Below, piece after piece: positions 1,798 to 52,560 of a stretch of DNA of 64,000 bases (its first letter is position 1; each line of letters opens with the position of its first letter). The stretch is taken from positions 34,618,527 to 34,682,526 of the forward strand of contig OX485808.1 in the NCBI GenBank assembly GCA_950295325.1. The letters are read 5' to 3'. This stretch comes from Polytrichum commune. Its lineage: Eukaryota > Streptophyta > Polytrichopsida > Polytrichales > Polytrichaceae. The position numbers and the translations under genes are program-made. A model generated the notes under the pieces. The model saw only the letters and a program-made list of their open reading frames with translations, did no database searches and had not been told where the DNA came from.

Positions 1798-2163
1798 CTC
1801 GTGGCCGAATAATTAATTAATTTCAAATTTTAATGTCCGGCAGAAAAAAAAGTAATATTTAAGAATTCGACTTTTTGAAAAAATAAATAACTATAGGTTC
1901 GACTTTCATCCACAGTTCATGGCGTTTCATTCTTTGTTTGCTACTTCATTATGATGTTTTGAAAGTGGCAGCCGACCTTTACCTTAACTTAACCTAAATG
2001 TTCACTTAAGTTTGCTTAACTAACCCTAATCTCAATGTTTACCATGGGGGCCTGTTTGTGCAAATGCTAGTTTGTCAAGGGACTTGTGAGAAGTTTGCAA
2101 CATTGCTTTGATTCTTGTAAGTGCTTATAAGGTTAAGTGTCTTGCCAATGAGTGATTGAGAGT

Positions 2164-4205
2164 ATGGGTAAACAACAAGTTTTGAGCAATATGTTCACAG
2201 TCATAGACAAAGAGGAAATGGAAGATAGGGTTGAGCGTGACTTTGCTCAGCTACATGTGAAGATGGAGTTGGAGAAATCAATCAAGAAAGAAGTTCAGAA
2301 ACGTCCAGTGGGGAGGCCTAAGAGGGAGATCGAAGCTGTACTTGTTCCAATCAAAGAGGATAAATGTGACACAACACCGAAGAGGAAAAAAACTAGAGGA
2401 CCATACAAGAACTGGTTTGTACCATCTCTCTGGGATCCTATCTATGCAGCTGTAACACATCATAGAAGTATTGGTCATGCTTTGAAGTATTTGCAAACAA
2501 AATACAAGTTGCCTGGACAAACCAAGAGTGTTTATGATGATTTAACCAGAGGTTCCATGAGAGAATGGTTCACTAAGACAGGGGAACTAAAAGATGGTAC
2601 AAAACAAGCAATCTTCAAAGAAACAGCAGCTTACACAGGTGGAATTCAACATGCTTATGTTCTTTCTAGCCATCGTGAATTGGAGGAAGAGATAATTACC
2701 TTGTTGAAGGCACATCGTGAAGCAGGTCAACCTCTTTTTGCTTCTACTGTGAGGAACTTAATTCGAACCCTCATTCAAAAGAGAGAGCCCAACCTTCTCA
2801 ATTTTGAAAGTCCAAGTGGATTTAGGGTTTCTTTAGAGTGGACACGAGATTTTGTGAGAACGAATTTGAATTGGAGCTTTAGGAAAGGAACAGGAGCAGC
2901 TAGAAAACTACCGAAAGATTGGGAGCATAAGGGTTTGCAAATGGCACAACGGACAGCCTACCTTGTCAAAGCCCATTCCATTGCACCAGAACTGGTCATA
3001 AACACTGACCAAACAGGGATACATCTAGTACCAGTGGGAGGTGCACGCACTTGGGTAGAGAAAGGGTCCAAACATGTACAAATCTTAGGTATGGAAGACA
3101 AAAGACAAATTACAGTTTCAGTGTCTTCTTCAGCTGCAGGAAACTTGTTACCTTTTCAACTTGTCTTTACAGGGACTACAGATAGATCTCTCCCACCTCG
3201 AAATGAAGGTCGCCAAATGTGTGAAGATGCTGGTTGGCATTTAACATATAGCAGCAATCATTGGAGCAACTTGACCACTTGCAAGCAATTTGTTGAACGA
3301 ATTTTACAACCTTATAGAAGAAAACAAGTGCAAGAGATGGGATTGGATGAAGAAACAAAGTTGATATGGCTGTTGGACTGTTGGAGTGTTCATATTTCTA
3401 AGGACTTCATTTGTTGGTTGAAGATATCACATCCACAAATTCTACTTATCTTTGTCCTTGCAAATTGCACCAGCGTTTTTCAGCCAGCAGATGTGATTTT
3501 ACAGCGCCCATTCAAGCATGGTTTCAGACAGCAGTTTGACAATTACACTTCTGAAAATATTGGCAAACAGATTGACGAGAAGGAATTACAAGATGTAGAG
3601 TTAAATACAAAAATGTCAGTGCTTAAGCCTTTGTTGTGCAGCTGGTTGTATCAAGCATGGCAACATATCAACAAAAAGACATGATTAAACGAGGATGGAG
3701 CATGTGTGGCTTAGATCAAGCATTTGAATCATCGTTTCAGACATCTGCTATGGAGGAACACATGAAGAGTTCATTGTTCAACGAAGTACAAGGTGCAGAA
3801 GAAATTTGCAAGGAAAAGGATGACGAAACAGATCCAGACGAAAGTATTGAAGCCATAATGGAGAAGAATCTATCTCTTGTTGCTACTACAAGGGAAAACA
3901 AAAGATCTGTAGTGACAACCATGAAAGATCGAGCCAGAAAAAGGTATGTTCATTCCAAACAAGTTCAAAGAAAAAGTTGAAGTTACATCTGAAGTGTTAA
4001 AATGTGAGATCTTTTTATTGCCATAAACTTGTAATTTTCTTACCAAGACTAACTGCCTACAATTTGAATTTTATCCTATGCCAGAACCCTACACGCAGAT
4101 GACAAGCACGACACTGATCAGGGTACGAAAGATAAGAGACAACGAAGCAGGAAATCAAGTGCACAAAAGAATGTTTCAAGAATGGACAAGTTGAATGAAG
4201 ATTGA
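2164..4205 (+). pseudogene. Pogo-like DDE transposase with one frameshift
   Basis: The main frame runs 2164-3684. I chose ATG 2164; the frame opens twelve bases earlier only with a GTG. Near residues 47-55 is an AT-hook-like GRPKR motif, then a helix-turn-helix-like region, then a DDE_1-type catalytic domain. Its acidic triad is visible in order: NTDQTG, WLLDCWSVH and FQPAD, the last being the third-aspartate region. The frame ends early at a TGA just after a run of five A (3673-3677). The family continues in the next frame (KDMIKRGW), so loss of one A explains the break. After it an acidic/basic tail is open to 3980. A plausible GT-AG intron (3944-4084) would join it to a charged final exon, 4085-4205. 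That intron is inferred, not shown. Known role of the family: cut-and-paste transposition in the nucleus. Confidence 0.85.
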
Positions 4206-12398: not shown

Positions 12399-15300
12399 TC
12401 AGTCAGTATGATGAAGCTTTGTGTGAGCGCCTAACACAAACTCTGCATAGAGATTCTTTGCCGCAAGGAGGACCGTCATAATCAGCGGTCCCATTATTGC
12501 ACCCTGCAAGTAAAAGAAACAGAGCAACAATAAGCTCCTCAATCTGTTTGGAAGTTCAGAATTTTAAGGTTTTTGAAGCTGCGAAGCTGCGAAGCACAAT
12601 ATATTGTGGGCATTGTTCCATTAAGGTATTTAATTTTGGGAGCCCCATAAGTATTCAGAAACTAAATAGCAACAACCACTGAGGGCAGTGAAGAGTATGG
12701 AAGCTAGGGATAAAGCTAGAAGAATTAGGGTATAGACCTATTAGGGCATGTGTGATTCCTTGGACAACCATGACCACTGGAACTAGAGGCTGTCAATGTA
12801 GTATTTCTCATATTGAAGGGGCAGCTTAGTGGCTTAAAGCCAAAGCCTTAAACCAGATCCCATGGGTACTCTGACGTTACTGCCGAAGGCTGGAACAGTA
12901 CTCGGAAAGGTGAGCTTCCTAGCACTTGATTTCTAGTGCACCCTACCACCTATGGTCCACCCAATCATAGTGAGAGTATCCAAGTGAACTAGATATTTTC
13001 AACCAACCATGTGGGAACCCAAGGGGTTGTCCTTGGGGAAGATAGGTGCCAGCCAAATTGTCTGCACCCATTGAATTCAAAAGGAGGCAGTAGTCTTCAA
13101 GGGCCTTTTAATTCTCGTATTGCCCATTTCGGAATTACATATAGACTTGGACCAACTCGAAAATGAAGCAACACATAATCCACGCTAGTGACAACATTGG
13201 AGTCGTCTTTCTTTCTTCCTTCCTTACTATATTTATCTTCTTGTATTGAATAGTATTTGCATGTCATTTATCTGGCTTGATTATATCATAGCTTCTTGCA
13301 ACTTACTAGAGCATACTCAAACACAATGTATACAAAGGTAGGGAAGACCCAAGAAATGCATCAAGGAAGGAGGAGAGAATTACGAGAGAATTCCAAGGAG
13401 ATGAAGGAAGGGAAGGTAGATTTTACTTGTTTCCATTAGACTATATGTAGTCATCTTGGTAACCATGTGGGACCTCTACAGAATTCTCCTTCCCAAACAT
13501 TTATGGGATATTGCTAAGGGAGGTCCTCTGTTGTAAGCAGATGTGAAAAAAGTGTAGAAAGAGATTGAGCTTTTGAGGTTACCTCGAGGGCGGGAGAAAA
13601 CAAGGCCATGCCACCAGCAATGCTGAGCCCGGTGAGGTAACCATTGTGGCCTGGAATCTCCTTATGAATTTTGGAAAGCCCGTAGTCCATCCCATAGACA
13701 TGAATGATCATGAGAACCACAGCCTCCACGTATCGGCCTTCGAGTGCGAGCTGTGCACCCCCAGGAAGCGCTGCCAGCCAGTTGGGGAAGAGGGGCAACA
13801 CGGCTTGAAACATGGCGAGAAATGTTGACATGTACAGGAAGTGGATTCGGAACCACGTGAACAAGAGCCATGTGAATGTTGCCTGCACCCAAAACAAAAA
13901 AAATCACATAAAAAAATATGCATAAAAGAGTATCATGTGAACTTCAACAATCAACTTGTATGGGTGACCGTCCTAGCACTTGATTTCCAGTGCACCCAAT
14001 CATAGTGGGGTATCTAGATGAACTGGATATTTTCAACCAACCATGTGGGAACAACCTAGGGGCTTGGCCTAGGGGGAGGTTAGGTGTGGGTTGGCTTGTC
14101 CGCGCACGTTCAAGGTGTTCACCTTTGAATATAGGCAGTAGCCTTTAGGGCCCTCTAATTCTCGTAATGCCATTAACATAGACTTAGACAACTCGAATAT
14201 GAAGCAACACCATAATTCACGCCAGTGGCAACGTCGGAGTCATCTTTCTTTCTTTTCTTTTACTTGTCACTGGTGCCTGATTATGAACAAACTCACTGAT
14301 CTCGTTCGTGGGTCAAATCCCAGAGCTTTACAGAGGCCAACACCTTCCCAAGATCATATGCTTTCACTTACCCACCCTTACACTAAGTAAAACATGAAGC
14401 AACACCAGAATTCACACCAGTAACTACATTGGAGTCATCTCTTTTTGAGTCACTGGTGCCTGAAACAAATAAACTCACTCTTGTTTGCAAGTGGTTTACA
14501 TCCCTGGGGTTTAGGGAGGCACACAACTTCCAGAGATCCAGGTATCCAGGTATCAAGAAATAATATAATTGGACAAGCATTGCAAGAACAATATGGATTC
14601 TTTTCCTCTCAAGTGACACATTCCGAGGCTCCTCAAGTGGCACCAATTAATTTCTTCCAAAAAATAAAGATTAACAACCCTTATTCATTTACTTTTCTTA
14701 TTGAGACCCCTATATTTGAGTGGTATGCGTAGTATGTGGTAGGTGTGCCTCCAAGAACGGATACCAAAAAGACATGTATTTGAAAAAGATAGGACTACGT
14801 GCGCAGAATTTGATAACCATTATAGGCTTCATAGTCAACATAATTGGGCAGACCTATATGACCATTTAATGACCACAAGAATATTCACTTTCATTATGAG
14901 GTCAGTGCTCGTTTTGGAATTGCTAACCATCTCATACTTATCATGTGTTTCATATCCTAGGAGAAGTGGGCTAGTCAGAAAGAGTAACCATTCAAGGATG
15001 ATGTACCTTACCTGAAAAAAAGATGCCTTGAGGGTGGCCAGAAGCACTGAGCTGACAGCATGGTCGAGCACATCTGCACAACGGCTCCGCACCGAGTCCG
15101 AAAGGGGCACCATGTTGAGCACCTGGTTCATGACGGCAGACTCGGATGTGATGAGATAATACAACACCGAGAAGAAGATGATAGTCTTGGTGATGAAGTT
15201 GATCACGCCTGCCGCACCCGACGCCAGCGAGCTCCAGAGAAACAAAACAAAGTAGAAACCCTTGCCCATCAAGTTTGAGCCACTGACCACCACCGTTTTC

Positions 15301-16618
15301 CCAATATCGGACGATTTCTGCAACATTTGCTTCACCTTTTCCATTAGATCCTCCTTCCCAATCTGGAAGAGCTCAAGGCCAAGGCTGCTGGCCGCCTCTG
15401 CCTCTGCATAGGCTCCTCCAAAGTCGTACATTCTCAGCTTGGCCTGTCACAAAAATACATACATAAGGTAAGTGGGCCTAATTCTGTTACTCTTCTTAAA
15501 AGGAAACTTATATTTGAGTGGTGTGTGGTTAGGTGTGGATCTAAGAATAGACACCAGAAAGGCATCATGTGGTTAAAGGAGATTAGACTACATGCTCAAA
15601 TTTTGTCAACCATTCTAGGCTCAATAGTCAACATAACTGGGGGGACCTATATGAACATTCAATGAGAAAGAGAATCTTCACTTTGATAATGAATAAGATA
15701 TTCATATGAGCTCTGAAAATTATGAGAAAAATGGCTACGGGCACAATTTGGATTTGCTATTCATCTCATACTAATTGTGTGTTTCATATCCTATGAATAG
15801 TATGTGCAGAGCTAAAAGTGTCCATTTAAGACATGCTTACCTTGATAGGACTAAGACCTCATCGTACCATTCAATGACTTTTCCTTGGTGTTTCATCCCC
15901 TGGGTTGTTTTGCATGCGATATCAATAATTTCTTTCCACTTGTGACCTTGCATGCTCGGAGGAAGTGTTTGAATTTGAATGAGGAGCAACCTATTTTGGT
16001 TCAATGAGGGCCAAACTCATTTTATCACCTCTAGATGGCATGCCAAAATGAGTTTGACCCTCAATGAACCAATATAGGATGTTCTTTGTTCAAACCTCCA
16101 CACTGCCTCCAAGCATGCACCAAAAAAATTCTGAACATGGAAAGTATTGTTTGCAAAACAACCAACTCTCCACCCAAAGACACATTAAGTTAGAGGATAA
16201 CTCTAAGGTAGAGAAACAAAAAAAAAAAGTTGGTAGGAAAATCTTGTTGTCTACAATGAATCTTTCACTAGAGTACTTGGTGATGAGAAAAACTTACCTT
16301 GATGTTTTGGAGCCTCTCCACAATGGGGTGTGATGGTACAGACACAGCCATCGCCTCCGTCTCATTCTCAGCTCCAATAACTTTTCCCTTGTGAGACAAC
16401 CCTCCCAGAAACTCTTTTCCTACCTTTGCTGCCTCAGTCATGTTGTTCTTCTCACCAAATGCATCAATCTGGGGATTGAAAGAGATGTATTCAACAGTTT
16501 GGGAAAAATCCACTAGACTACAGCTCAAATCTGAGGTCAATACAACTACTAGGCAATCCTACAACGGTAACCATTAAAAAGCCCCGGTAAATTTTCTAAG
16601 GCCTCCGTGATAGTTCAC

Positions 16619-16650
<32 letters not shown>

Positions 16651-19600
16651 TCTGATTGAAAGAAAACAATTCATGGATGACTTGATTTTAGATTTGACAT
16701 TTTCAGCTTAAGATAGCAATAAGTAACTTTAAACACCTCTGTACAACACCTTCAGGCCCAGAATGGGCCTCTTGGACATTTAAGGGTTAACCATATGACT
16801 TCTGAGTTTTATCACTATTTCATTCACAGAAACTAGGATACCTTCTTCACTCACAATATCAGATGCAAGTTATACATCAAACCAAAGAACTCCAGAACTA
16901 GGATCAGAATTCGAGCTAGAAGGAGGAAAAAACAAACAACAATTGCAATTGAAAATCCATCCAAATGGAATTAGTACCTGCTGCAGCAATGCCTCGTAGG
17001 CTTGAGACATGTAGGAGTCAATCTGTTGCGTCACATTGTTCTCTTCTACCCACTTGTTCAGCCCCATCGTCTCTGCATAGTTACTGTGGTCCACGTGAGT
17101 CTTGAGCGTAACGATCGCATCCTTAGCCTCCATGCCCACTTTGTAGGTGAAAAGGATAGAGCCACTGAGGAATCCCACAAAGATCATAAGAATGAGCACT
17201 ACTGCCACCAGGGTGGGTAGGCTTGCTGCGATCGAACGTGTCAACCCTCGGTTGCTCCACCTACACATTCACAATAATTACGTCAAACTTCAAGGATTCC
17301 AAATATAATCTAATTTACCCTCAAAACCAAGATTCCAGATTCAGCTAACACAAAGCGTTGTCATATAAGTGAGTTAAGAAGATACACGGTTGTGAAAACA
17401 AGTTTTCAACCTATCCCAAAGAGCAGATTGGAAACTTGATATGTCAGACATGTCACAAATTTTCTGGTATGCTCAACTTTGATTAATTTGATTCGTGTGC
17501 AAGCGAGACAACTCTGAGGTTGCCACTGCCGTGAATTATGGTGTTGCTTCATCTTGTAGATAGTCTAATTCTAAATGTGATTCTGAAACGGACCTCACAA
17601 GAATTAGAGGGACCTAAAAGAACACTACCTCCTTTCAAAGGTGAACACCTTGAATGGGCATCAACAAGCCGGCCCACAACTAATCTCCCCAAGGACAAAC
17701 CCCTAGCCCCTATGTTCCCACATGGTTGGCTGACCCAGATACTCATACTATGATTAGGTGGACCATAGTGGGTGCACCGAAAATCGATCCTAGAAAGGTC
17801 ACCCATCCAACCATTAGTCCGGCCTTAGGCGGCTTAACCTCAGAGTTAAACATAGGATCAGGGTTAAAGCCTTGGGTTTAGGCCACCTTACGATTAGTAC
17901 TAGTCTAAAGTTGACACTGATGAAGAGAAGACATTAAGTTGGGGTTTGCACCAATTGGAGGTTAAGAACTTTTCTTATCTCAAGATGCTAAACCTAATTA
18001 GGGTTATCCTCTAACTCAACATGACACGGTGGATGCTTGGAGGTTGTGTGGAGGTTTGAACCGTTGAAAACATTCTATATCAGCTCATTGAGGGTCAAAC
18101 TCAATTTGGCATGCAATCAAGAGGTGCTAGGATGAGTTTGGTCCTCGGGTTGCTCTTCATTCAAATTCAAACACTACCTCCGAGCATGTACTACGAGTGG
18201 AAAGAATTTATTGATATTGCATGCAAAACAACCAATGGAATCATAGGGGACAGTAAAACTCCTGACAAAAAGTCCCATTGAGTTCAAGCGTAAATCTGAT
18301 TTCTCTAAATGTGAAGTGGGAGGATTCTAACCTCACTGCACTGACCACTGGTTGCACAGTCCACCCATAAAATTGGGTCAGCCGAGTCCCTTTCCCATTC
18401 AAAGTGGGAGGATGGTCGAGAAAAAAAGGCAGCAAACTCTTCACACCCGCATAGACCAAAATCCCCACAAACGAGGTCGTAGCTAACGCCACAGGACCAA
18501 GAAAATCATACACAAGTGTGCACACCGCAAACGCAAGTAACCATCTAGAAAGCTTCGCAAACCCGATTTTCTTCTTCGGCAACGACAACTCCCTCTTGCC
18601 CACCATCCCCAAAATAGCGTCCTGCATGTCGTCACCGGTTTCCACAAGATTCTTGAGGATAAAAGCCGGAGCGGCCAATAGGGTTTCCATTAACCCGTTC
18701 CGCAGCGGCTCCTCCCAAAAGGTCACCAAAGCCCCTTGGATTTCCCGCAACGGCATCGAAATCAACACTGCCCATTGTATGGGCTTGTAGTAGCCTTTAA
18801 GCAAGAGGCCGATCCCAAAAAACACCAAAATGCCCAAGACAAGCCCTGCATGTGCCATTGCAATGTACATGGCGAGCTGTGCATTAGCGACATTTAGGGA
18901 ACTCGGGTTCACGATTTGTTCTAAGGTTTCGGAATCTGTTGTGTTTGTGTCCCTTTTTGCTGCTGCTTCAACTGTTTGTGTTTTTTGTTGATCTGGTAGT
19001 GCTGGTGGCGTTGTTGTTGTTGTGGAGACGTGATTGGTCTCCTTGTTTTCCACCTTTTCCTCTTCCTTGGGCTCCATGGCTGAGTTGTTGTTCATTAGCT
19101 TCGTGAAGGAGCCGTTGTGGTATTCATGTCGTGCGGGGGACCCCGGCAAACTCACAGTATGCGGTACACCTGTTCGGGCCACTGCAAGAAAGTTAGTGGA
19201 ACATCAAACAAATTATTGATAAGCAACAAAGAAGACCTGTACTGCAGATTCACTTAAAACCGTGCCAATGATGCATTTCAATCAGCTGTCCTCACAAGAT
19301 TATGAAGTGACGGAAAGACAAACTTTTCCTCCTAATGACCTCACATAGTCTTGCTTCTGATCTTATGGAGCCTACATGAGCGCTTGCAAAAGTGTATCTA
19401 GCAGTAGACTTGTGCAACCAAGAACTTGAAAAGGTTAGTATTGGGGAACATCAAAGGATCCGTTGAGTAGCAATGACATGCCCACCACAAACCCAAACTG
19501 CAAATACAGATCAGGTCTTCTTTGTCACTGAAGTAAATTTGCGGGGTTGTTGTGGGGACGTGATCTGTTCAAACAAGAGTTGTGAGGTGATTCTGAAAAA

Positions 19601-28100: not shown

Positions 28101-30224
28101 GTAGCCAATCACTCTCAAGCACTCTGGTAACTGTAGAATAAGAACACAACATTCAAAACAGTACACTAACAAAACAATTGTTGGAGATAGCATGAATCCT
28201 ATCAGTTCTGTAATGGTGTGTAGCAGGCAGAGAGCACTAAGTCCACAATGCCTCTGAGGTTTCTTATGGAAAAATGTTCACTTCTGAAATTTAAGTCTGA
28301 CCTGAATGTTTGATCGCAAACGTTGCAAGATCTGAGCAAGTAATGACTGAGTTGTTTGTCTCACATCAGCCTCCAAGGACTGAATCACTGGAAGTCTGTA
28401 GTCCATATAGAATAAAGGCAAATGAGTGCAAGTCAACACCAAAATGAAGGAAGTGCATGCAAATTGATGAAGGGGCACAGGTTGATAACCTGGAATGCAT
28501 TGTTGAAAGCTTTGTGACAAAAGCTTCCAGATCAAGAGCTTCATCATAATTTCCATTTCGCACACATCTGCACATTAGTTCAAATGAAATGTCAAAGTCA
28601 GCAGATTCACATCCTGAGCTGCACATATGCAGACTCAAATAGGCAAAAGTTGGTGAAAGTCCCTGGAGTGCTCATGAGAATCCCTTCCAGCACTAATTTC
28701 ATACTCAAAGTTGTTGATAATCAAAGCAAGGAATAACTTACGTGTCCATAAGTTGTGGAATCTCCAGCAGATCCAAAAGAGTGCTGTGATTAGCAAGCAA
28801 TGTCCTATTCAGCTTTCGTTTCTCTAGAATCTGTTGTGCTTCATCCATGAAGTCATTGCAACCAGCAGTGAGCTTCGGAATTTCTGCAATCTGGCACACA
28901 TTACAATCACTTTTAGTAAAAGAAAGTATCTCAATTTTTAAAAACCTAGCAAATATCTGTCCAACCCCAAACAGAAATTCACACACTCCATACAGAAGCA
29001 GGTGCAATTAGCACTAAGCCATGACTTGTCTGCAACTACTCAAGAATTTAGAATGCACTAATAGAGAACATCTAACCCATCAGCCTCAAGATTGGAAGTG
29101 AAAGTTGAAGGAAACCAATATGAGCGGTCAGCATTGTATTTAAGGGAACTTATGTGTGAGGAATGGTGTGATCCAAACAATGCCGTCATACCAGAGTAGT
29201 CAAGTGCTCATCCACAGATGTGATTTCATGAGTGATGTTTTGAACTGCATCAGCTGCACTGATGAATGCTCTATAATGTCCAACTGCAACCTCTTGCATC
29301 TGCCGCCGAATTCGCTCTGCATCCACCCGTAGCAGCTCCGGCTCCTGTAAATGATCATTAATTGATCTCAGAAAGACTTCATGTCGTGACAGAATTTGAG
29401 ACAGGAAAGAGCAGGCCCCATTCTACATTTTTGGTCATTGCTTCAAGACCGACATATCATGCTATTATGCAATTTCAAGCCAACAAGATCAATCTAAACC
29501 TACAATCTTGCCATTTAATCAAACCACCAGCTGAGGTTTTCTCATTCTCAAGTCCATGGATGTGATATCAGATCAATTCAAGGAATCCACGGGAGAATCC
29601 TTAGAAGAAAATTTAGCTTGAACTCAAAGTTCACACAGAATCTGATGACTCCAAAAAATGCATGCGATTTCCAGAATCTCGCCAAGTCGTCGATATACTC
29701 AGAGCTTTATAAAAAGAATCAAGCACATTTTGTTCAATTGAACTTAGATATAGTCAACATTCGGGTCGACAAGAGATAGAAGAATTAGAGTGCAAGCTCC
29801 AACATTAAGGAATCACGTGTGCAGCTGATCCTTGAAATTCACAAAAATCTAAAATGGCCATTCCTATGCTTCCATCGACTCAAAGAGCTCACAGTCCTCG
29901 CAGATCATTTCACACAGGATTTCATTAGGGTAACGACTTACAAGAAAGAAAGAAAAAAACAGAGTTAATCCAGGGAAAAAAAATCCTTGGTTCGACTGGC
30001 AAAGGTGTTAGACATTCAAATTAATCGATATGTGGTAACTTACAGAAGAGGCGAGGTCCAGTGGAGTGGGGAGAATTGAATACCTTATGAAGTCGCTCCA
30101 AGTTGAACGCCAGAAGCTCCGAAATGTAGGCTTGTTGCGCAGGGTTCGTGATGTGCAGCGGCAGCGGACTGCCGCCGGTGCCGCCCTGCGGCGTCATGGC
30201 CGCGACCTCGGGGCCCGATCGCAT
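25199..30224 (-). CDS. COG8: Conserved oligomeric Golgi complex subunit 8 (Dor1 family)
   Basis: COG8 is a subunit of the eight-part COG tether, which captures retrograde vesicles at the Golgi. Twelve GT-AG exons with continuous phase: 30084-30224, 29192-29344, 28742-28890, 28490-28567, 28302-28395, 28056-28130, 27414-27710, 27063-27130, 26779-26833, 26284-26425, 25835-26019, 25199-25585. They total 1824 nt (607 aa), close to other plant COG8 proteins. Hallmarks in order: [131 protein letters not shown]. The N-terminal 30 residues (Gly/Thr-rich) and the acidic C-terminal tail after about 540 are lineage-variable. The start at 30224 is the first ATG before the conserved region; the frame stays open upstream. 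The 5' end is duplicated at 8.6-9.2 kb. Confidence 0.97.
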
Positions 30225-36544: not shown

Positions 36545-36561
36545 GCTGGAATAGCTCAGTT

Positions 36562-36594
<33 letters not shown>

Positions 36595-36618
36595 GAGGTT
36601 CGACCCCTCCTTCTAGCG
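36545..36618 (+). tRNA. tRNA-Asn (anticodon GTT)
   Basis: A complete 74-nt cloverleaf. The acceptor stem GCTGGAA pairs with TTCTAGC and the discriminator base is G. The D arm is around AGCTCAGTTGGTTAGAGC. The anticodon stem TGTGG/CCACA encloses CTGTTAA, so the anticodon is GTT. The T arm is GGAGG-TTCGACC-CCTCC. There is no intron and no encoded CCA. It lies about 700 bp downstream of the PPR-SMR gene and reads as a normal nuclear gene. Confidence 0.97.
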
Positions 36619-40639: not shown

Positions 40640-41770
40640 ATGAATACTTGAAGCACCTAGAAGCAGCTGGCGAGTTAAGATCTTTCAAAACTTGAAAGCT
40701 CTGACAACAAAGATCTGAACAGTAACTATGGTGCATAGCAGAATCAAATCCTTTTGAAAAGAAAAAGGAAGGAACGTTTTGTATCAGAAGCTCACGGATA
40801 CTGACCGGAATTGAATGCTGGAACTGGACAGACACACGTAATGAAGCTAACTTGATTCTAGGCATTTGTATCAGTAAGATCAATAATCACGAGGACTAAG
40901 CTTACGCAGTGGATTCGATGTTGGTACAAAAACACCAATTTAGTGAGCCAAAAAACAAGAAAAGTTCTTGCGACAGCACAATTTGGAGATCGTAGTGTGC
41001 TCACACCAACAACATTGAACACCGACACTTGTTGACATGCATGTGTGGCCTAGACAGAGAGAAGAGGGTGCTAAGTTAAGAGCTGCTGAGGGCGGTCGCA
41101 AATTATAAAGTTTGAGAGCCAATTCAAATATTTTTGGTGTGGCATGGGGCTTCACATGTGGTGTATTATAAAAGCATGGGTGACCCTCACATGACCGGGC
41201 CCTTAGCATGCATTACTTTATTGGTTTCCTAAAGGCTTTCATGGGTCCTTTCCAACATGTTAAGAAATATAAACGAGGGTTGTCAAGATTCTAGTTGTCC
41301 TTGTTCTCTCGGATCTTGCATGAAGTAGTGGAGCAAAACAAATCTAAGAGCCCATAGCTAATATAAGATTATGTAAATTTGGTTTCACGTAGCATAAAGT
41401 GCATGTCGACAAATTGGGTACATCCATTTATATAGAACTTAGTATGTCGGTCGCTAGCTATTCCTTCCATGATGAACTTGGACTCTTGGACTTTTTCTTC
41501 AAGAACGAACGAAATGAATTGGAAATTCAATGATGATTGGCACAAGGCCATTGTGTCTATTGTAAAGTATGCTTTCGTTTGGCTAGATAAAAAGACCTTG
41601 TCAATCTCCTCGAACCCAATGCCAAACATTTATCAACTTGGTGGGGTCAACACAATGGGGACGAAGAATATTCAGAATCTGAAAACTCAACTTGGTAGGG
41701 CCACCGTAATTGCCATCAAGAAGATTCATTCGAAGGTTTGGATCCCACATAAGCTACATTTATACATCAC
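40640..41770. other. Intergenic, no gene seen
   Basis: Non-coding or unresolved. A minus-strand frame at 41369-41629 has no recognisable domain. No repeat stands out before the foldback at 41779. Confidence 0.5.
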
Positions 41771-48779: not shown

Positions 48780-49600
48780 GATTTGAGTTTCTTGAGTGTT
48801 GAGAGGCTTATTTGAGAGGTTTGGAGGTGTTTAGACTTCAAAAGTATTTGACTTGAATGTTTTGAACATTCAAGGATTTACTTGAGAGCTTTGAAGGTGT
48901 TTAGACTCCAATACCACATGACTTGAGAAGCTTGATTGTTGATAAATTTATTTGAGAGTGTAAGACATATTTGAGGTGAAAAAAAAACCTTGATTGAGTG
49001 ATTTGAGTGTATTAAGAATTGCTTTGACATGTAGAAGATCTAACTTGAGGTATTTGAGGTTAAAAAAATGAAACTTATTTGAATGATTAAATGATTTAGA
49101 AATCTTTTGAGGTGTAGAAATTCTAACTCAAGGTATTTGAGAATATACAACATCTAAGGTAAAGAAGATCTTATTTGAGTGATTGAATGTCTTAAGACCT
49201 CTTTTGATCTATAAAAAATATAACTTGAGGTATTTAAAAATGTAAGGCATTTGGAGTGAAGAAAATCTTATTTGAATGATTTAATATGTTAAGAACCCTC
49301 TTGAAGCATAGAAGATATGACTTGAGGTATTTGAGAATGTAAGGCATTTGAGGTGAAAAATATTTTATTTAAATGATTTGAATGTTTTAAAACATCTCTT
49401 AAGGTGTAAAATATCTAACTTGAGGTATTTAAAAGTGTAAGATATTTGAGGTGAAGAATATCTTATTTGACAGATTTGAATGTCGTAAGAACTTTTCTTG
49501 AGGTGTAGAAGATCTAACTTGAGGTATTTGAGATGAAGGAAATTTTATTTGAATGATTTGAATATCTTAAGACATCTCTCGATGAGTAGAAGATCTAACA
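48780..49600 (+). repeat. ~97-bp tandem repeat array (minisatellite)
   Basis: The block CTTGAGGTATTTGA recurs at 49044, 49128, 49224, 49321, 49420 and 49519, a spacing of 84, 96, 97, 99 and 99 bp. Each unit also has a GAAGATCTTATTTGAATGAT-like block and a CTTAAGACATCTCTTGAGG-like block. More degenerate units extend left to about 48780. Units differ by scattered substitutions. No coding capacity. Confidence 0.88.
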
Positions 49601-49782: not shown

Positions 49783-52560
49783 AACGCCGCTATAATCATT
49801 AACAAATTTAATGGAGGAAATTTTAATTTTTGAAAGTTCACAATCGAAATGTTGTTGGCATCCAAGAATCTTTGGAACATTATGGACGGATTTGAAGAAA
49901 CTCTACCTTCCAATGTGTATCCCAAAGTGTTAAAAGAGTAGTAAAAAAACTAAGAAGACCATATCTATCATTGGCCTCAACTTCACGGATAACTAACTTA
50001 CGTACATCAAGAGTTGTAAAAGACCCGTGGAGACGTAAAAAACCCTTTGCAACATTCACAAGATGAATAATTTGTCCAATATTCTATTTTTTTGCCGCAA
50101 GTTCTTCACATGTAAGATGCAAGAGGATGATGACTTGTTAGACTACATTAACAAGGTCAAAGCGCTTGCAGATCAACTTGCTTGTTTGAAGGTATTTGTG
50201 GAAAACAAAGACAATTTCATGACCTTGCTCGAGAGTTTGCCGACATCGTACAAATATTTGATTACCACCTTGGAAACGATGCTCATGAAGGAGCTTACCA
50301 TGGACCATGTGATGATACGTTTGATGCACAAGATATCGAAGTACAAGAAGGAGTCCCAATGTGGGGATGATGTCATGGTGTTACGAGAAAGGAAAGGGGA
50401 CAACTCATTTCTGCGCTAAGGCATAAAGTCATCATTCTATTGAAGCAAACCGGGCCACATTGCGTGTTTTTGCTGCAAAACAAAAAACAAAGAGCATGAA
50501 AATGCGAAAAATATGAATAAAAATAACAGCTACATATTTGTAATGCATAATAGGACACATTCCAAGAGCATGTATAGGTGGATTATGGATTCGGGAGCCA
50601 CCAAGCACATGACTTCGTATAAGGTTGCATTCGACATATATGAGGTAATTATTCCACATTATGTGCATTTCAATAGTATTAGTGTTGTTGAAGCCATCAA
50701 ATTGAGATCTATCATCGTAGAAGCAATAGTGAGAAGAATAATCAACCGAATTTGTATAAAAGATGCACTCTACGTACGTACCCAAGTTGAAATCAATTTG
50801 CTCTCGTTGAGCAAACATGTGTCGAACGGTTTAAAAGTGCAATTCAACCTAAGCTAATGTTTTTGAAAAACATAGAATGAAAAAGCCATTACAATTGCGT
50901 CACACGAAAGCAACTTGTACGAAATAAAATTTGCGATGGTGCATGGAGCGGATGCGACCAATTTGGTACAATCTCCGACGGGAGATGGTGCACTTGAGCT
51001 TTCACATCACCACCTTAGACATTTAAATGTGAAAGATGTTCATACGCTCCAAAACATGGTAAGTGACATGACCATTGGCAAATTTTCTTGCCTAATATCC
51101 TTGTTGCTTTGTAAAACGTGCATTAAAAGCAGTAATATAGGGTTGGATTTCTGAACAAGAGATATGTGAGTGACCAACTCTTTAGAGATTGTATATTCCA
51201 ACGTGTGTGGTCCCACGAGGAGCATGTTTATGGGTGGCGTAAGATATTTCATGACCTTCATTGATGGTTTTTTGAAGAAGATCTGGTTGTATGCGTTGAA
51301 GTCTAAAGGAGAGTGTTTTGAAAAGTTCAAGGAGTACAAGGCACTTGTAGAAACGCAATCAGAGTACAAAATCAAGCCATTTTGGTCGGATAATGGTGTA
51401 AAATACATTTCCAAAGCATTCGAATGGGCTTTGAAGGATTATGACACTGGGAAGCAAACGTCCATGACATATAGGCCTCAACAAAATGGAATGGTAAAAT
51501 ATGCCAATCACATCATCGTGGAGACGGCTATGACCATGCTTTATGCTCAAAACTTTCACAAATCATTTTAAAGCTGAAGATGTGGCCAATGCAATTTACA
51601 CATGAAATTGATGTCCAACAAGGGCAGTAGACCCTATTATGCATGAGGAAGTGTAAAGTGGGAGGAGACCTTGCATTGGACACATGTGTATGTTTGAATA
51701 TATTGCCTAAGAAATTATGCCAAATGAAAGAAGGATAAACTCAATGCAAACAATTTTAATATATGTCCAAGTGGGAGTAATGAAGGCCCTACGGTGGTTG
51801 TTGTGAACGAATCTTCCAAATCACCTTCGTATGATGACGGTGAAGAGCAAATGGGAGATCATTTGGTTGCAAATGAAGAAAGCAATTGAAATATCCACGG
51901 AGAATGACGACCACATTAAAAGATTCGGCAAAGACGGAAAATCTTTTAAAAGGGAGCGATTTCTGCGTGGAGAATGGTGGAAGAATCACATTCTACTCCA
52001 ACACAGCGAAGAACAAGCCAGTGTGGCATTTTTTAATGATCATTTGAATTTGTGCAAAACATAAAGATCCGAAGATGCGAGCAAGTGGGAGCTGCAATGC
52101 AAGAGCAATACAACTTGCTCATGGCCAACGGTACTTGGAAATTAACCAACCTTCCAAAGAATTGCAATAGTGTAGGATGCAAATGGATATTTCGCACCAA
52201 GAGAGATGCATCGGGTGAAATTATTAGGTATAAGATGTGATTAGTATGAAAGGGATATTCTCAAGTTGCCGGAGTGGATTTCAACAAGACCTTTGCCCCC
52301 ATGTCGAAATTTATGACCATTAGATGCATTCTCGCAATTAAAACGGCCATGAATTGGGAGATACTAATCGCAAAGTACATTTGTTTAGCCCTGGGACCAA
52401 AATTGTCATTGTAATATCTAGGGATTCCAATTGAGTATATGTATGAAATCATGGAAGGTGAAAGTCGAAGTTGAACAAACCATAGTCCCAACTGAAAGAA
52501 TGAGCTTTGGTGGAATCTTGGAACTGTTGAAAGCATTGAGTAATGAAAAGTTAAGAAGAG
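49783..52560 (+). mobile_element. Decayed Ty1/copia retrotransposon
   Basis: Fragments lie in copia order on the plus strand. A gag start is near 49800 (KFTIEMLLASKNLWNIMDG). A UBN2-type gag follows at about 50063-50419 (YINKVKALADQL, LLESLPTSY), then a protease motif WIMDSGATKHM near 50580. A GAG-pre-integrase block lies near 50990-51070, and an integrase core at about 51170-51571. There the first two aspartates are recognisable and the usual Glu of GVVERxN is Lys (GMVKYAN). A reverse-transcriptase start lies near 52120-52350 (VGCKWIFRTKRD, then VDFNKTFAP after a stop). Stops and frameshifts separate all blocks. No LTRs, primer-binding site or target duplication could be found. Confidence 0.88.

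Follow-up and report, generated by a model that had tools for sequence, protein, structure and literature searches.

Decayed repeats with a 5S rRNA-like head in a land plant, probably a dead SINE3-type family

The 64,000 nucleotides of Polytrichum commune DNA that we analysed (the window) carry, on the minus strand, a gene with a match to the Pfam family AI-2E_transport (E 1.7e-8; 34.5 bits, cut-off 34.3) when four of its exon pieces are joined by eye. The name TMEM245-like, given to the gene in the preliminary description, agrees with this match. Three copies of a repeat, here c1, c2 and c3 (Table 1), were recovered at the places and on the strands at which that description had located them. 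It had also put the whole family inside the gene, which is right for c2 and c3, since both lie between coding pieces; c1, however, lies past the last piece that we used and could be either in an intron or beyond the 3' end of the gene. Relative to the gene c3 is in sense orientation, and c1 and c2 are antisense.

In the same gene, a MITE-like repeat that forms a hairpin is present twice, in inverted orientation (15895-16206 and 17998-18241). The arms of this repeat (15949-16023 and 16045-16119) are 75 nt long and 80% complementary, and it gives weak, sub-threshold Rfam matches to MIR405 and MIR946. A second repeat pair (14679-14967 and 15477-15801, pieces 76-84% alike) flanks one TMEM245-like exon piece. 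Elsewhere, the window includes a PPR-domain frame, a tRNA-Asn(GTT) gene at 36545-36618 (+), and an open frame of 510 codons at 2152-3684 (+) that encodes an endonuclease domain of the DDE_1 superfamily (E 7.7e-8), which we take to be a pogo/jerky-like transposase. Broken open frames at 50039-51571 read, by eye from their translations, like a Copia-type retrotransposon, and a tandem array occupies 48968-49533, its units, 76-77% alike, measuring about 83-97 bp and 195 bp.

Table 1. Repeat copies, their 5S-like heads and a duplicated 3' end, in window coordinates (head scores from nhmmer with the generic 5S query)
Feature	Position	Strand	Description
Copy c1	12819-13217	+	Most complete plus-strand copy: 5S-like head, body, CTTT-rich tail
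Copy c2	13955-14262	+	5'-truncated within the 5S part; body, CTTT-rich tail
Copy c3	17505-17892	-	Full length; tail degenerate
5S-like head of c1	12850-12922	+	5S nt 25-99; 15.9 bits, E 5.8e-4; score reached by 0/1000 shuffles
5S-like head of c3	17771-17862	-	5S nt 28-117; 18.4 bits, E 9.8e-5
Tandem duplicate of c2 3' end and 3' flank	14376-14537	+	Source 14182-14354; homology crosses the tail/flank junction

The copies are about 310-400 bp long (308-399 bp). By BLASTN, c1 and c2 are 72% identical over 324 columns, c1 and c3 68% over 401, and c2 and c3 75% over 224; counted over aligned letters only, the identities are 81%, 74% and 80%, and the Kimura distances are 0.22, 0.33 and 0.24, respectively. 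Judged by the sequences of its copies, the family is old. A profile of the three copies, searched against the whole window (--max), found only one further strong match, which scores 36.4 bits and covers 69 nt of the 3' end (14378-14446), and four weaker matches at E 0.37 or worse. Outside the window, two family patterns had no hits in viral_contigs, one had none in genome_contigs, and c1 matched nothing in plasmids; none of these collections is intended for plant nuclear genomes, and the outcome carries no information on plants. All three copies thus identified sit within 5.1 kb (12819-17892) with no other copy in the 64 kb, an arrangement that random placement gives with p of about 0.02. As to coding capacity, none of the 29 open reading frames of at least 120 amino acids in the window overlaps any copy. 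The 250-bp flanks of the copies showed no meaningful similarity in six of six pairwise comparisons (a single 9-base match, E 0.31), and because the flanks are unrelated the copies look like separate insertions. Upstream of the unit, c1 and c3 have no sequence in common beyond chance (p 0.37).

The unit runs from the 5S-like head through a body to a 3' domain common to the copies (ATGAAGCAACACCATAATTCACGCCAGTGGCAAC..., ATGAAGCAACACCATAATTCACGCCAGTGG...), and ends in c1 and c2 in the CTTT-rich tail. The heptamer TGCACCC, which is the 3' end of 5S, is kept in all three copies, and the body starts immediately after it. The preliminary description had assigned to the three copies a common body and a CTTT/T-rich end; the body and 3' end are indeed common to all (the 68-75% BLASTN identity given above), but a CTTT-rich tail is seen in c1 and c2 only, that of c3 being degenerate. 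Truncation at the 5' side is confined to c2, whose 3' end is kept. Neither c1 nor c3 has terminal inverted repeats (p 0.94 and 0.49). The best direct repeats flanking c1 are of 8 or 7 bases (p 0.073); the best for c2 is the 6-base ACTTGT, which has the expected placement but overlaps 5S-like bases (whole-flank p 0.36); and around c3 no direct repeats were found (p 0.93). None of these makes a convincing target-site duplication, which after such decay is not surprising. We found no compensatory pair changes in the 3' end (none in eight pairs), and the predicted RNA folding of c3 is no better than that of shuffled sequences (z -0.76). TTTT runs occur inside the unit, and these could act as early pol III stops.

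The extra tail at 14378-14446 is most simply taken as part of a local tandem duplication of the c2 end and its flank, since the homology to c2 continues without a break from the tail into the flank. On the sequence, such a duplication would explain this tail without a second SINE family. Such a family, tRNA-headed and with the same tail, had been a candidate at 14262-14450, where there is a B-box-like GGGTCAAATCC; the homology of tail plus flank led us to drop it, and the A/B signal of this segment was equalled by 216 of 300 shuffles.

The similarity of the head to 5S rRNA was measured with two plant 5S queries, one generic and one Arabidopsis-like. Against two published 5S primers, as printed in the source (PMC5672272), the Arabidopsis-like query is exact over 2 x 25 bases and the generic one differs by one base in each. 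With either query, nhmmer found significant matches to 5S at two places only in the 64 kb, the c1 and c3 heads. With the generic sequence (scores in Table 1) the next match has an E value of 1.2, and with the Arabidopsis-like sequence c3 scores 15.6 bits (E 7.7e-4), c1 14.7 bits (E 0.0015) and the next match has E 1.5. The preliminary description had reported that the heads of two copies follow plant 5S; the search bears this out, the two being c1 and c3. None of 200 block-shuffled windows reached the c1 or c3 scores (best 10.7 with the generic and 9.9 with the Arabidopsis-like query), and the reversed window gave at most 1.8 bits against generic 5S. In local alignments to 5S, none of 1000 dinucleotide shuffles equalled c1 or c3 with either query. 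For c3 the scores are 138 and 165; its reverse complement reaches 94 and 104, which is more than the shuffles average (67-68) but less than the best of them. A gapped alignment extends the c1 head to the 5S 3' end, with TGCACCC at 12937-12943; in c3 an ungapped stretch of 52 nt has 38 positions identical to 5S, a figure that is descriptive only, the stretch having been chosen from the earlier match.

The profile of the three copies aligns co-linearly with generic 5S, profile positions 30-121 corresponding to 5S positions 27-118, at 22.8 bits, and 5000 mononucleotide-shuffled 5S sequences scored 1.9 or less; with Arabidopsis-like 5S the score is 18.6 bits (shuffled at most 2.8). With profile position 30 opposite 5S position 27, the 5' end of the unit falls within a few bases of the first nucleotide of 5S, given the unit ends chosen in the preliminary description, on which the profile was built; the homology of c1 and c3 itself begins a few bases further in. 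Over the first 26 nt of 5S, 15-16 of 27 positions are identical when gaps are free, which is not a demonstrable match; the length of this leader fits. The 5S remnant of c2 is not significant on its own, its score being reached by 202 and 446 of 1000 dinucleotide shuffles with the two queries; it is the homology of c2 to c1 and c3 that identifies this part as 5S. The Rfam 5S covariance model, which takes structure into account as well, run on the window, on 12501-18300 and on the c1 and c3 heads, gave a best score of 11.1 bits against a cut-off of 38, for c1 only, and no match for c3. The preliminary description had proposed weighing the likeness to 5S against random expectation; the likeness clearly exceeds chance, and the alignment keeps the order of 5S from nt 27 to nt 118. 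Within these limits, our answer from sequence comparison is yes: the head of the family appears to derive from 5S rRNA.

Chance similarity in an unclassified repeat of unknown origin can hardly be credited, even with the Rfam 5S score below threshold and the box motifs alone not above chance, as the only significant 5S matches in 64 kb fall at two homologous places and the profile match is co-linear.

What remains of the pol III promoter was judged against the motifs of Cassandra. Box A has three mismatches in c3, is absent at the expected place in c1 and has been truncated away in c2; box C has three, two and one mismatches in c1, c2 and c3, respectively; and the IE is conserved at three of six positions in c1 and c3. 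c2 starts inside the 5S part and retains a C-box-like ATGGGTGACC, which matches 5S at 13 of 17 positions, as does a C-box-like site at 41172. In c3 the gap between box A and box C is 18 nt, equal to the Cassandra spacing in the published text (PMC7215508). Taken alone, box pairs are at chance level in the window: c3, with four mismatches, is second to a site at 2131 with three, which is probably accidental, and a three-mismatch score was also reached in 5 of 40 shuffled windows. An intact A-box, IE and C-box, to which the preliminary description had looked for support, is not confirmed; the boxes of the copies are decayed, and in c1 box A is missing from its expected place. The three copies are old fossils and probably no longer active.

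We suggest that c1, c2 and c3 probably represent a dead family of 5S rRNA-headed SINEs, of SINE3 type and with a CTTT-rich tail, in a land plant. The SINE3-type interpretation had already been offered in the preliminary description, and it draws support from the 5S likeness above chance, the terminal position of the 5S part, the unrelated flanks and the CTTT-rich tail of c1 and c2. The common unit, the 5S-derived head, the unrelated flanks, the one 5'-truncated copy and the CTTT-rich tail in two copies are observed directly. The name "SINE3-type family" is our best inference and not proof. Such a family would have worked as follows. The internal control region of the 5S-derived head (A-box, IE and C-box) would recruit pol III, which would transcribe the unit of about 400 nt from near its first base. 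A LINE reverse transcriptase would then recognise the common 3' domain and the CTTT-rich tail and, through target-primed reverse transcription, insert copies of the RNA at new sites and so spread the family through the genome. Some copies would be left 5'-truncated by this process, as c2 is.

The alternative that survives best is that a 5S pseudogene or 5S-like promoter was captured by some other mobile element (a DNA transposon, a Helitron or an unknown composite) and was not moved by a LINE. The direct-repeat p values of all three copies, given above, are consistent with such a capture, no LINE partner is known, and other repeats, hairpin elements included, are found in the same introns. We nevertheless consider capture unlikely: c1 and c3 are without terminal inverted repeats, and the asymmetric unit, its simple-repeat 3' end and the 5'-truncated copy are a better fit to target-primed reverse transcription.

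The copies might instead be solo LTRs of a Cassandra-like TRIM, Cassandra being a known plant retrotransposon with 5S in its LTRs. Like the repeats described here, it has 5S sequence in a plant mobile element, where it serves as a pol III promoter. It bears the 5S internal control region, its LTRs in legumes are up to about 400 bp long, and it is recorded in ferns and angiosperms in the published excerpts (PMC10853983, PMC7215508); the box spacing kept in c3 is also Cassandra-like. The same excerpts place the 5S sequence at about the middle of the LTR, with a common core of about 70 bp, and describe a methionine primer-binding site and a polypurine tract (PMC10853983, PMC7215508). Here, in contrast, the 5S part is terminal in c1 and c3, starting at the 5' end of the unit, and their homology stops at that point. 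The Cassandra primer-binding site TGGTATCAGAGC matches the window at three places with two mismatches, where 4.28 would be expected; the nearest is at 29563. TG...CA ends are also missing from c1 and c3. Nor can c1 and c2 be the two LTRs of one element, because part of the coding sequence of the host gene stands between them (they are about 1 kb apart and point in the same direction). We regard this explanation as quite improbable. More generally, membership of the copies in some larger DNA or LTR element, which the preliminary description had named as fatal to its proposal, is not what we see: the flanks are unrelated, c1 and c3 are without terminal inverted repeats, and the Cassandra primer-binding site occurs at chance level and nowhere within 11 kb.

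A tRNA-headed SINE, the usual kind in plants, with an accidental likeness to 5S, is very improbable. c1 does start with an A-box-like CAGCTTAGTGG that has one mismatch to the degenerate A-box. However, the A/B-box composites of c1 and c3 were equalled by 143 and 142 of 300 shuffles, such composites are not in excess over the whole window (74 against a mean of 80.5 in 20 shuffles), Rfam tRNA gave no match to the c1 and c3 heads at E 10, and the match to 5S is far above chance.

Returning to the 5S-headed SINE, its closest parallels are in animals, where SINE3-type elements with 5S heads include zebrafish SINE3, DeuSINEs such as AmnSINE1, and the lepidopteran HaSE3. These likewise carry at the 5' end a 5S-derived head with its internal control region, joined to a body and 3' tail that come from elsewhere. 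They differ from the present copies in that the latter are in a plant host, have a CTTT-rich tail and are known from three decayed copies; the comparison extends to the head and the overall plan. The moth element HaSE3 is reported to resemble 5S most closely within the boxes and to have relatives in introns of a gene; its 5S head is followed by a body and tail that it has in common with a tRNA SINE, and its partner LINE is known (PMC3272025). More than one origin of SINE3 has been stated in print, several in all (PMC10886601), so common descent with the animal elements is not implied.

Among plants, the tRNA-headed SINEs Au, p-SINE1 and TS are likewise short and non-coding, with a head, body and tail, but unlike those of the present copies their heads are derived from tRNA. 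Plant SINEs are described as tRNA-derived in one review. The tails of the Au and p-SINE families are T-rich and not A-rich, according to the available text of PMC3747384, which also gives Chlamydomonas SINEX-2_CR a (CTTT)n tail and, as partner LINE, RandI-2 (RandI-3). The latter element, from a green alga, resembles c1 and c2 in its CTTT tail, the feature compared here. In general terms, 5S heads are allowed for by the plant SINE annotator AnnoSINE (PMC8825457, in part). No plant 5S SINE was named among the open-access matches listed, so far as their visible text goes, and the 5S SINEs that were named belong to insects and a fungus; a plant SINE3 may already be known in subscription papers, Repbase or SINEBase.

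A 5S-headed SINE would come as a surprise to plant SINE specialists, and the case for it rests on three decayed copies, all in one 64-kb window. The CTTT-rich tail could indicate a LINE partner other than the poly(A)-dependent L1, a hint that we take from the alga, whose CTTT-tailed SINE is paired with RandI LINEs in the text cited above (PMC3747384). If the interpretation is true, the family would also offer a candidate 5S donor, hitherto missing, for Cassandra. An insertion of SINE3 into an LTR has been proposed as the origin of the Cassandra 5S sequence, in the excerpt available (PMC10886601); that an ancient land-plant lineage of 5S-headed SINEs donated the 5S promoter of the Cassandra LTR is a long shot. 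The plant family would, if real, represent another birth of the 5S promoter trick, in a further kingdom.
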